Shown here: in pieces, positions 56,299 through 62,200 of the stretch
Position numbering within the stretch: position 1 is the first letter of the stretch
How the letters are laid out: the number at the start of each line of letters is the position of its first letter
Assembly: GCF_030866745.1 (NCBI RefSeq)
Contig: NZ_CP133016.1
Span: 1,846,001-1,910,000, forward strand
DNA length: 64,000 nucleotides
Direction: 5' to 3'
Source: Sphingomonas flavescens
Lineage (GTDB): Bacteria > Pseudomonadota > Alphaproteobacteria > Sphingomonadales > Sphingomonadaceae
Translations under genes and position numbers: made by a program
The notes under the pieces: generated by a model
The model's database searches: none
What the model saw: only the letters and a program-made list of their open reading frames with translations
Told to the model about the DNA's origin: nothing

Positions 56299-56377
56299 GT
56301 CTGCGTCGCGCTTGTCAAATGGCGCCGCTCTCACCGCGGTTGAGACAGGCCAGCCGCCTCGCTACATGGCCTGCACC

Positions 56378-58387
56378 ATGACCAAGATGTTCAAGATCGC
56401 CCTTCCCGATGGCTCCGTCAGGGAAATGCCTGAAGGGTCGACGCCGGCGGACGTCGCGGCGGCGATCGGGCCGGGGCTCGCCAAGGCGGCGCTGGCGGCC
56501 AAGATCGACGGCGAGGTGCGCGACATCATGCGACCGTTCGAGGGCGACGCGAACCTCGCGCTGATCACTTCGCGCGACGAGAAAGACGCGCTGGAGCTGG
56601 TTCGGCACGACTTCGCACACGTGCTGGCCGAAGCGGTGCAGAACATCTTCCCGGGAACGCAGATCACCTTCGGTCCCGCGACTGACGACGGCTTCTACTA
56701 CGACTTCGCGCCCGCTCCCGGCCGTGGCCCTTTCACCGAGGAAGATCTGCCGGTGATCGAAGAAGAGATGCGGCGCGTCATTGCGGCCGACAAGCCGCTG
56801 GTCCGCGAAGTGTGGGACCGCGAGCGAGTGCGGCAGTTCTTCATTGAGCACGGCGAGGCATTTAAGGCCGAGTGGGTGATGGAGCTACCCGAGGGCGAGC
56901 CGATCACGATGTATAAAACGGGTCATGGTCCGGCCGACTGGATCGACCTGTGCCGCGGCCCGCATTTGGCCTCGACCGGCAAGCTCGATCCGAACGCCTT
57001 CAAGCTGACCCGCGTGTCGGGCGCCTACTGGCGCGGCGATCCCAAGAACCCGATGCTGAGCCGGATCTACGGGACGGCCTGGCTGAACAAGAAACAGCTC
57101 GACGCCTATCTCGTCCGACTGGAGGAAGCGGCCAAGCGCGACCACCGCAAGATCGGGCAGGAGATGGACCTGTTCCACCTCCAGGCCGAAGCGCACGGCA
57201 GCGTGTTCTGGCACCCGCACGGGTTCACCATTTACCGAGCGCTGGAAGCGTACATGCGCCGCCGCATCGACGAGGCGGGCTATCGCGAGATCAAGACCCC
57301 GCAGCTGATGGACGCGCGGCAGTGGGAGAAGAGCGGCCACTGGGGCAAGTATCGCGAGAACATGTTCGTCGTGCCGGACGAGATTCCGAGCACCGACGAA
57401 GATGCGCCGATCCTGTCCGGCGATGCGGACCTGATGGCGCTGAAGCCGATGAACTGCCCGGGGCACATCCTCGTCTTCAAGCAGGGTATCACGAGCTACA
57501 AGGAACTGCCGATCCGCTTCTACGAGAACGGCAGCTGCCACCGGAACGAGCCGCACGGCGCGCTCCACGGGCTGATGCGCGTCCGCCAGTTCACGCAGGA
57601 CGACGCCCACATCTTCTGCCGGGAGGATCAGGTCGTCAGCGAGGCGCAGGCGTTCTGCGAGCTCGCCGCGCGCGTCTACAAGGACTTCGACTTCACCTAT
57701 GAAATCAAGCTCGCGCTGCGCCCGGACAACCGGTTCGGCAGCGACGAGGATTGGGACAAGGCCGAAGAGGAGCTGCGCCAGGCCGTGAAGGCTGCCGGCA
57801 TGGCGACCGAGGAATTTGGCTGGGAAGAACTGCCCGGCGAGGGGGCCTTCTACGCGCCCAAGCTCGAATGGCACCTTAAGGACGCGATCGGCCGGACCTG
57901 GCAGGTCGGCACGCTGCAGTCGGACCGGGTGCTGCCCGAGCGGCTCGACGCGACCTACGTCGGTGAGGATGGCCAGAAGCATCGCCCGATGATGTTCCAC
58001 CGCGCGATCTTTGGGTCCTACGAGCGGTTCATCGGCATCCTGATCGAACATTATGCGGGTAAGTTCCCGCTTTGGCTGGCGCCGGTGCAGGCGGTGGTCG
58101 CGACGATTGTCTCGGATGCCGACGGCTACGCGGAACAGGTCGCTTCGAAGTTGCGGGGGGCAGGGATTCGCGTCGAGACCGACCTCCGCAACGAGAAGAT
58201 CAACTACAAGGTGCGCGAGCACAGCCTGGCCAAGGTCCCGCTCCTCCTGGTCGTCGGCAAGCGCGAGGCCGAGGAAGGCACGGTCGCGCTCCGGCGGCTG
58301 GGCAGCGACGAGCATCAGAAGATCATGAGCCTCGATGACGCGGTTGCGATGATGCGCGCCGAGGCCGTTCCGCCCGACTTGGCCTGA
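56378..58387 (+). CDS. thrS: Threonyl-tRNA synthetase
   Basis: Class II synthetase, 669 residues from ATG 56378 ([17 protein letters not shown], the TGS domain start; ATG 56387 is close by). The order is TGS domain, the editing domain with [11 protein letters not shown] and DLCRGPHL, the catalytic core with LKPMNCPGH (zinc Cys/His), [26 protein letters not shown] (motif 2) and the C-terminal anticodon-binding domain. Normal length. An in-frame ATG at 56312 adds a non-conserved 22 residues. infC follows. Confidence 0.97.
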
Positions 58388-58396
58388 CGCGCCTTC

Positions 58397-58411
58397 GCCA
58401 CACATCGTGGC
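58397..58411 (+). other. Stem-loop in the thrS-infC spacer
   Basis: GCCAC-ACATC-GTGGC, a 5-bp stem with 5-base loop just after the thrS stop. It is followed by AAAATCG, not a T-run, so a terminator is not supported. It could affect processing or translation of the downstream infC leader. The spacer (58388-58501) holds no other feature that I can support. Confidence 0.3.
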
Positions 58412-58489
58412 AAAATCGACTCGCTTTTGCGCGCCTGCACTTTTCATTGTGCGGCCGAGTGCATAAGTCGACAGTTCCACAAGCAGAAC

Positions 58490-58504
58490 GGAGACTCGAC
58501 TATA
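58490..58504 (+). promoter_or_regulatory. Ribosome-binding site and AUA start of infC
   Basis: GGAG at 58490-58493 stands 8 bases before ATA at 58502-58504, which is in frame with infC. ATG, GTG and TTG in this frame occur only far upstream (TTG 58427, no conserved sequence) or well inside the protein. A rare start codon is the known basis of IF3 autoregulation (AUU in E. coli). Confidence 0.7.
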
Positions 58505-59047
58505 CCACCGCCCTATCCGCGCCGAGGACCGGCGCCGCCGCAATTTACCGGCCCCCGCTACAATGAGTTCATCCAGTCCCAGAAGGTCCGGGTGATCGAC
58601 GAAAACGGGGAAAACCTGGGCGTGATGTATACGCGCGAGGCATTTGAGCAGGCGCAGGGCGTCGGGCTCGACCTCGTCGAGATTTCTCCCAATTCCGACC
58701 CGCCGGTCGCCAAGTTCCTCGATATCGGCCGCTTCAAGTACGAAGCCCAGAAGAAGGCGAACGAGCAGCGCAAGAAGCAGAAGACGCAGGAGATCAAGGA
58801 GATCAAGATGCGTCCGAACATCGACGACCACGACTACGACACCAAAATGAAGAAGGTGTTCGAGTTCCTGGAGGATGGCGACAAGGTGAAGGTCACCATG
58901 CGCTTCCGCGGTCGCGAGATGGCGCATGGCGAGCTCGGCATGGCAGTTTTGCGCCGCGTGCAGGAGCAGACGGCTGAGACCGCCAAGGTTGAGGCCCACC
59001 CGCGCATGGAAGGCCGCCAGATGCTGATGGTGCTGGCACCGAAGTAA
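58502..59047 (+). CDS. infC: Translation initiation factor IF-3, AUA start
   Basis: Binds the 30S subunit and discriminates start codons. From ATA 58502 the protein has 181 residues, the usual size, and reads (M)[23 protein letters not shown], then [39 protein letters not shown] in the N-domain and [26 protein letters not shown] with MLMVLAPK in the C-domain. A Lys/Gln/Glu linker lies between. IF3 starts on rare codons in many bacteria so that IF3 itself represses it. In E. coli infC is followed by rpmI-rplT; here a TonB receptor follows instead, so the operon is split. Confidence 0.93.
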
Positions 59048-59051
59048 CAGC

Positions 59052-59068
59052 GGGCGGCACGTCCGCCC
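59052..59068 (+). terminator. Probable stem-loop terminator after infC
   Basis: GGGCGG-CACGT-CCGCCC just after the infC stop, followed by CCTTACTTA, a weak T tract. Stem is very stable but the T-run is poor, so termination is only likely. Confidence 0.4.
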
Positions 59069-59211
59069 CCTTACTTACACGGCTGTTGCTAAATTGCTTC
59101 ACCGCTGCGGATTGTTGATTTCTCGCACGGCCCATCTTCCCTTGAAGCCGCGTTCAGGTTTAGCCTCATTCCACGACCGGGCGGCCCCGCCCGATTGGGG
59201 GAGAGAGATTG

Positions 59212-62200
59212 ATGATCCGCAAGTCCGCCTTGCTGATGACGACCGCCATGGTCGCCGTCGCGACTCCGGCTTTTGCCCAGAATAACGATACCCGCGTTCA
59301 GCCGACGCAGGCTTCGCCGACCGAACAGGCGGCTGTGACACCGCAGGCGCAGGCTGCCGCCGACGCGCCGCAGGACGTCATCGTTATCACCGCCCAGGGC
59401 CGTAAGCAGGTTCTGCAGGACGTGCCGATCGCGGTCACGGCGGTCGGCGCGCAGGAAATGCGCAACTCTGGCGCAACCGATATCCGTCAACTCAACCAGC
59501 TCGCGCCATCGCTGCTCGTGTCATCGACCGGCAGTGAGGCGAACGGCTCGGCTCGTATCCGCGGTATCGGCACGGTCGGCGACAACCCGGGTCTCGAAAG
59601 CTCGGTCGCGGTATTCGTCGATGGCGTCTACCGCTCGCGTTCGGGCATCGGCCTCACCGAACTTGGCGAAATCGATCACGTCGAGGTTCTGCGCGGCCCA
59701 CAGGGCACTTTGTTCGGCCGCAACGCTTCGGCCGGCCTCATCAACATCTTCAGCAAGCCGCCCTCGTTCACGTTCGGCGGCTACGGCGAAGTCACTGTCG
59801 GCAATTACAACCTTCGCCGCCTTGCCGGCGGCGTGACGGGGCCGCTGTCGAGCACGGTCGCGGCCCGTCTCGACGCCGTGTACGTGAAGCGCGACGGTTT
59901 CTACCGCGACCCGGCTAACGACACGCGCGTTAACGACCGCAATCGCTGGTTCACGCGCGGTCAGATCCTGTGGAATCCGACCGAAAACATGTCGATCAAG
60001 CTGATCGGCGACTACACGCATCGCGACGAAAAATGCTGCGGCGCGGTCTACGTCGACAACAGCGTTAATCCGAACATCGGCAACCTCAACGAGATTGCCA
60101 ACCCGCTGATCCAGCCAGGGTCGAACCCGGCCAGAACCAACGACAGCGGCAACAATATCGTCAACGTCCTTCGCGACCTCGGGCAGAACCTCAATGCACT
60201 GCATTCGGGCTATGACCGCACTCTCTCCGTCACGCCGGGCCGCAGCTACGGCGGCAAAACCAAGGACTGGGGTCTGTCTGGCCAGATCGACTACGACATG
60301 GGCGGCGCCAAGCTGACCTCGATTACCGCTTATCGCGACTATGATGCATCGCAGGGCGGCGATCTCGACTACAGCACGGTGGACATCCTGTACCGCCCCG
60401 CCGACGGCAATGCCGCACGGCGCTTCAAGACCTTCAGCCAGGAACTCCGGCTGCAGGGCAAGACGTTGGGCGAAAAGCTCGACTGGCTCGTCGGCGGTTA
60501 TTTCGCGGATGAGCGCCTGACCCTGACGGACAATTTGCGTTTCGGCAGCCAGTATGGCCGTTTCGCGACCTGCCGGATCGTGTCGCCCGGCGGTCTCGCC
60601 GCGCTCTATTCGCCGACATCGCCCGCCTGTCTCGCCGCGCGTCCGGCAGTCTTCGGTGCGGCGTCGCCGCTGATCTACGCGGCGTTCGACAATCTCGACC
60701 GCATGAACAATGTCGGCTCGACGCTTGACGTGTACAATCAGAAAAGCCGCAATTTCGCGCTCTTCACGCACAACATCTTCCACGTGACGCCGAAGCTCGA
60801 TCTGACCGTCGGCCTGCGGTACACCACCGAGCGCAAGAAGCTGGACGCACTGTTCGGCAACAACAACACGGCTTGCCCGGCCAACCAGGCCCTGCTCGGC
60901 AACTTCATCAATCCGAACAGCCCGGGCTTCAGTGCAGCGCTGTTCTCCGTGTCGAACGCGCTGCTGTCGCTGTCTTGCCAAGGTAATGCGACGTCCGAAC
61001 TGAACGGCGTGCGGATCTTTGACACGCGCAAGGAGCACAAGCTCACCGGGACCGGCGTCATTTCATACAAGCCGACCGAGGACAGCCTGATCTACGGCAG
61101 CTTCTCGCGCGGCTACAAGGCGGGTGGCTTCAACCTCGACCGTTCGGCGCTCAAGTTGCCCACCGTCTCGTTTGCGAGCGTCGGCGGTGCGCAGGCGCTA
61201 GTCGGCAACCTGCAGTTCGATCCGGAAATTGTCGATGCTTGGGAAATCGGCGGCAAGTTCTCCGCCCGTGGAATTCTCTTCAACGTCGCCGCCTTCCGGC
61301 AGCAGTTCAAGAACTTCCAGCTGAACACGTTCGACGGATCGGTCTTCATCGTTCAGAACGTCAACGGTTGCGGGACCAGCCTGAATGGCCTCGACCGCGA
61401 CAACAGCACGGCGCCGGGTTCGGCCAATTTTGTCGCACCCGTGATTGCGCCGGGTTCGGCTTACAGCCTGAACCCTGCCGCACTGACCGGCACCTGTCCG
61501 TCTGGCGACGTCGGCTACGGCGTTCGCTCGCAAGGCGTCGAGCTGGAAGCAAGTTTCAGCCCGATGCGCGACCTGCGCGTCAACCTCGGCTTCACCTACG
61601 CCAATACCAAGTACCGCAATAATCTGGTCGGTACCGATAATGGCGCGCCGCTCAATCCGGCGCTTCGTGTCCTGCCGGGCAACAACATCTCGAACGCGCC
61701 CAAGAGCGTCGGAACGGGGGCGATCTCGTACACGCCGCGCATCGGCGGAAGCGGGCTGACCGGTCTGTTCTATGTCGATGCGCGCGTGACCAGCAGGTAC
61801 AACACCGGCTCCGACTTGTTCCCGCAAAAGGGTCAGAAGGGCTATTCGCTGGTGAACGGACGCGTGGGTATCCGTGGCCCGAACGAGTCCTGGGCGATCG
61901 AGCTGTGGGCGCAGAACCTGTTCAACAAGGATTATGCGCAGGTCGCGTTCAACTCGCCGTTCCAGCAGGGTGGTTCGACTCAGCCACCGTACGCGGCCGG
62001 CTTCACGCACGCACCGTTCATCGATCCGCAATTCCCGGGCGGACGCCAGCTGTTTTCGATGTTCCTGTCGGAGCCGCGGACCTTCGGAATGACGCTGCGC
62101 GCCAAGTTCGGTGGCCGGAAGGTGGAGCCGTATGTTGCGCCTCCTCCACCTCCACCTCCGCCTCCGGCCCCCGCGACTCAGACGTGCCCTGACGGCTCGG

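Follow-up and report, generated by a model that had tools for sequence, protein, structure and literature searches.

Which codon starts infC in Sphingomonas flavescens is a question that the gene itself raises: from an ATA at position 58502 to the conserved core of translation initiation factor IF-3 (IF3), the reading frame holds no ATG, GTG or TTG, and the nearest downstream in-frame GTG and ATG correspond to residues 31 and 42, both within the IF3_N domain. We studied the gene in a window of 64,000 nucleotides, by which we mean the whole stretch of DNA analysed, taken from a genome that consists of a single contig of 2.66 Mb. Read from the ATA, infC occupies 58502..59047 of the forward strand and encodes 181 residues, with a TAA stop at 59045-59047. 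Its product reached 230.9 bits against TIGR00168 (cut-off 60), both the N- and C-terminal IF3 domains scored above the curated cut-off (Pfam PF05198, IF3_N, residues 21-89; PF00707, IF3_C, residues 97-181), and 88 of the 163 residues aligned with PDB chain 8jsg_A were identical. The AUA (58502..58504, forward strand) stands 8 bases after a Shine-Dalgarno core, GGAG, at 58490..58493 of the same strand; an AUH start (AUA, AUC or AUU) at the normal distance from a Shine-Dalgarno sequence, and the retention of AUH across species, were thus both found. Judged from the sequence and from the same site in relatives, translation of this infC very probably begins at the AUA.

Directly upstream, with its stop separated from the ATA by 114 bases, is thrS, encoding threonyl-tRNA synthetase (56378..58387, forward strand; TIGR00418, 631 bits, cut-off 384). 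The listed thrS reading frame, 56312-58387, opens with a TTG at 56312, and the start of thrS is uncertain. On the 3′ side of infC lies a TonB-dependent receptor-like gene whose best match falls under the cut-off of its family. No Rfam model matched at gathering score in the whole window, the leader gave no evident sign of a structure that would hide the infC start (fold z-score -0.75), and a consensus scan of 58300-59230 yielded no sigma-70-like promoter. Across the family, a TATAT-like box occurs between -80 and -15 at 63 of 160 infC loci, compared with a mean of 3.3 in 200 shuffles, and 45 of the 63 boxes begin at -40 to -36 before the infC start (L006 and L064 are examples); this box, about 40 bases upstream of the start, is perhaps the -10 element of an infC promoter.

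To place the AUA in context, we compared infC starts throughout the Alphaproteobacteria. Genomes with an infC match numbered 388 of 397 in the family of the window genome, 145 of 147 in the order and 286 of 289 in the class; together with 80 named loci from the genome collection, these provided a set of 302 loci (L001-L302), of which 15 identical around the start were removed, leaving 287 distinct loci that represent 62 family codes. The loci were selected manually to cover a range of genera and families, from the better-scoring family and class matches listed with coordinates, and the sample is therefore tilted toward genomes with good IF3 scores. Starts were called as the in-frame ATG, GTG, TTG, CTG, ATA, ATC or ATT with the best AAGGAGGT match at a usable distance, among codons within 34 codons of the IF3 core. 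By this rule, 283 of the 287 loci start with an AUH codon (ATA 222, ATC 59, ATT 2), three start with ATG and one received no call; infC of this alphaproteobacterial sample starts with AUA more often than with any other codon. ATA was called in all 11 genomes of the window's genus; the rest of the family (n=150) gave ATA 115, ATC 33 and ATT 2, the rest of the order (n=31) ATA 27, ATC 3 and one without a call, and the rest of the class (n=95) ATA 69, ATC 23 and ATG 3. AUH was found at every locus examined in 59 of the 62 family codes, the exceptions being f119 and f134, which have ATG, and f4, in which one of two loci lacks a call. A looser first version of the Shine-Dalgarno rule (n=287) had returned ATG at five loci, TTG at one and no call at one; at L107, L178 and L258 its calls used bases outside the AAGGAGGT core, and the stricter rule gave ATA or ATC there.

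The rule is not decisive for a single gene. When it was applied to 54 roughly chosen genes of the window, within a search range that stopped short of the infC ATA, it called ATG 9 times, ATC 4, CTG 3, and ATT, GTG and TTG once each, with no match in 35; ATH was thus picked in five of the 54 genes, ATA in none. It is conservation that carries the argument for the AUA start. Effective Shine-Dalgarno spacing was 6 at 187 of the 283 AUH loci, and 15 of the 283 additionally offer a canonical codon whose match spans at least four bases. Nor is the ATA retained for the isoleucine that it would encode: it is scarce as a codon in the genes of the window (19 of 18,021 codons, about 1 per 1000, compared with 743 ATC and 156 ATT) and dominates at the infC start site of the family (ATA 126, ATC 33, ATT 2). 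GGAG-N8-ATA recurs in the same place in relatives and, given the rarity of ATA, is not a chance arrangement. An earlier note, made from the letters of this DNA, had read the gene in the same way: the ATA start at 58502 that it proposed is borne out by AUH at 283 of 287 class loci and ATA in 11 of 11 genus genomes, its GGAG 8 bases before the ATA and its 181-residue protein agree with the sequence and the TIGR00168 match, and the comparison of sphingomonad 5′ regions that it suggested found ATA, ATC or ATT at all 161 distinct loci of the family, the genus included.

Two other positions for the start have to be weighed, one upstream and one downstream. A TTG at 58427..58429 (forward strand), 25 codons before the ATA, is the sole canonical start codon upstream in the infC frame, and initiation there would give an IF-3 of 206 residues with a 25-residue extension. 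Upstream calls do exist in databases: two metagenome proteins of 231 and 210 residues (P0002 and P0003) were called from codons 50 and 29 residues, respectively, before the AUA site. The 20 bases that precede the TTG, however, contain no Shine-Dalgarno-like sequence, as read directly from the sequence at a position beyond the scored range of the rule; the earlier note's observation of no ATG, GTG or TTG at a sensible place holds. More broadly, at 187 of the 283 AUH loci an upstream stop closes the frame with no canonical codon between it and the AUH, in 16 loci the stop immediately precedes the AUH codon, and at 75 no canonical start lies anywhere between the upstream stop and the IF3 core. 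We consider translation from the TTG very improbable. An in-frame ATA at 58463, likewise read from the sequence, has no Shine-Dalgarno-like sequence before it.

The downstream alternative holds that in relatives the real start is an ATG at codon 4-6 and that the AUH codon is untranslated. Such an ATG is present at 106 of the 161 family loci, and eight of 15 database proteins (P0029, P0045, P0046, P0068, P0078, P0090, P0112 and P0119) begin at or after it. Yet it is absent from the window infC and from 55 of the 161 family loci, a Shine-Dalgarno-like match precedes it at a usable distance in only one of the 106, and outside the family an ATG falls within codons 2-6 at just 22 of 122 loci; the AUH codon, by comparison, stays fixed together with its Shine-Dalgarno sequence, with or without the downstream ATG. 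This reading is accordingly given little credence, if slightly more than the upstream one, and initiation at the AUA remains our preferred interpretation. The database proteins themselves (15 read of 120 listed) are divided: in five the first M coincides with the AUA position (P0014, P0019, P0025, P0028 and P0062), as judged from the protein and not from the codon, and the other 10 begin elsewhere. One further metagenome protein, P0023, has 280 residues and carries an anticodon-binding domain (PF03129) together with both IF3 domains; it is possibly a thrS-infC fusion or an error.

The choice among AUH codons is itself variable. We built a FastTree tree from 150 loci (L001-L162 with 12 duplicates removed), and on it the infC start codon switched between ATA and ATC at least 27 times; one reconstruction has 21 switches in one direction and six in the other. 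No locus of this tree starts with ATG, even though one transition would turn ATA into ATG; the survey's ATG and ATT loci lie outside the set. ATG starts were found at L279, L302 and L404 (all f119) and at L297 (f134), one of the four having been read by eye outside the 287; with three ATG loci among the 287 and this further one, AUH is not indispensable for infC. In f119 the ATG is preceded by a purine-rich match at 12-13 bases, an unusually long gap. Position -1 of the infC start is U at 58-79% of family loci versus 8-12% outside the family, where C is commonest, and the preference is therefore not a general one.

A conserved rare start in this particular gene fits the self-repression by IF3 that is known for AUU in E. 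coli, and the AUA start of sphingomonad infC probably lets IF3 limit its own production. Under this model, GGAG would place the ribosome at AUA 58502, where the formyl-methionyl initiator tRNA, with anticodon CAU, would read AUA as fMet despite a mismatch at the third position. Because IF3 would eject the initiator tRNA more readily from AUH codons than from AUG, infC mRNA would be initiated poorly when free IF3 is plentiful and better when it is scarce, a self-limiting loop of the kind described for E. coli AUU. IF3 reportedly discriminates against such start codons, a result attributed to La Teana et al. in 1993. At 11 positions of E. coli IF3 that we take to be residues of start-codon discrimination, nine are identical in the IF3 of the window (Y75, R99, Y107, K110, R129, R131, R133, R147 and R168, E. 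coli numbering), and R112 and R116 are replaced by K and E. According to a review, AUU, AUC and AUA are all used as starts, and codons with a final G count as canonical in the sense that they escape discrimination (PMC4611024). We regard the joint claim, that infC starts at AUA and that feedback by IF3 acts through this codon, as likely, and hold it less firmly than the start call alone.

One may postulate instead that the AUA is the start and merely keeps IF3 synthesis low, without feedback. Reporters of other S. aureus genes with AUA or AUU starts gave about 10% of AUG in RPMI, a poor medium, according to the available text of PMC13009471, and such output would suit a purely weak start; one AUA/AUU reporter reached up to 30% of AUG in rich medium (same source). 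Against this, infC with this type of start is the classic case of autocontrol, and it is IF3 itself that selects against start codons of this kind, as stated in PMC6199135. Low synthesis without feedback is thus an unlikely account, and self-limitation through the AUA is favoured. A different possibility, that the AUA is decoded by an initiator tRNA of its own, with anticodon UAU, is barely credible: none of the 44 tRNA genes found in the genome has this anticodon, in a set that is incomplete (tRNA-Ile(GAU), tRNA-Ala(UGC) and 16S rRNA were absent from what was found), and the genome has one initiator-type tRNA-Met(CAU) with C1xA72.

This initiator tRNA (L326; C1:1654009-1654082, reverse strand) has the anticodon stem TCAGG/CCTGA, with A29-U41 in the position where G29-C41 is usual. 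Departures from three G-C pairs are known in Rhizobium and mycoplasmas. The 15-base A-U arm was present in 193 of 289 alphaproteobacterial genomes. The three-G-C arm was matched in three of the 289 by one pattern (G653, G506 and G579) and in two by another (G653 and G522); ARAGORN did not recognize the G506 match as a tRNA, and G579 and G522 carry the A-U arm too. In 95 of the 289 neither arm was seen in a tRNA. As a control, the second three-G-C pattern matched 58 of 71 other Pseudomonadota and none of 24 alphaproteobacterial genomes. In f119, infC starts with AUG in all three genomes looked at, and since G653 has the three-G-C initiator and G570 the A-U one, there is no simple link between an AUG start of infC and a standard initiator tRNA. 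Three G-C pairs are said to occur in all initiator tRNAs in the review cited above, as far as its available text goes (PMC4611024). In E. coli, the 29-41 pair is contacted by 16S G1338, and a flipped G30-C40 pair, its neighbour, lessens discrimination against CUG, as reported in the accessible part of PMC11497404. One could imagine that the set-point of initiation fidelity has shifted as a whole in Alphaproteobacteria: A29-U41 in place of the G1338-contacted G-C pair should loosen start-codon discrimination, infC would be held at AUA (or AUC) and would almost never drift to AUG, and the AUA/AUC start would let IF3 balance the A29-U41 initiator, AUA thereby serving as the calibrated sensor codon of a class-wide loop unlike the AUU loop of E. 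coli. We consider this scenario doubtful, and the self-limiting loop remains the preferred reading.

These results bear on annotation and on the mechanism of initiation. They settle where an essential gene starts, a point on which databases disagree (10 of the 15 entries begin elsewhere), and they indicate that AUA is a standard infC start and no oddity. The 27 or more natural AUA/AUC switches on one tree offer material on how discrimination by IF3 treats different AUH codons, and the bacteria concerned have an initiator tRNA that differs from the textbook one. What makes the analysis valuable is how widely the pattern extends, together with the disagreement among database starts and the initiator tRNA.

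infC has reportedly been listed among genes with non-AUG starts across phyla; our literature search, which covered few subscription papers, did not turn up any mention of AUA as the start of infC in Alphaproteobacteria. We applied the same rule to 56 infC loci of other Pseudomonadota (the top 30 by score, plus 26 selected to cover other family codes), and obtained ATT at 29, ATC at 15, ATA at 11 and GTG at one, where the match is 13 bases away; with AUH at 55 of 56, such a start is the rule for infC in this sample of the phylum. The commonest codon is AUU in these loci and AUA in the alphaproteobacterial ones. The earlier note had called AUA an unusual member of the rare-start set, and this part of it found no support, as AUA was found at 222 of the 287 class loci and at 11 of the 56 others, and was mapped in Staphylococcus aureus.

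Among known systems, E. coli infC likewise starts with an AUH codon that follows a short Shine-Dalgarno sequence, the codon being AUU where the window infC has AUA. thrS presumably lies directly upstream of infC there, as in the window, and we take rpmI-rplT to follow infC in E. coli, where the window has the TonB-dependent receptor-like gene. Changing the AUU of E. coli infC to AUG is said to abolish autocontrol, as Butler et al. described in 1987. Closer in lineage is infC (pifC) of Rhodobacter sphaeroides, also an alphaproteobacterial IF3 gene, for which Babic et al. in 1997 is reportedly the original paper; its product is reported to act like IF3 (PMC6199135, in the part available). S. aureus infC is the same gene with the same AUA codon in a distant phylum, its start mapped by retapamulin ribosome profiling; the subject of that study, so far as its available text shows, is extended Shine-Dalgarno pairing, whereas the core match of the window infC is four bases (PMC13009471). 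Set beside these systems, the gene in the window is an ordinary infC, and its AUA start is a good example of a device already known rather than of a novel one.
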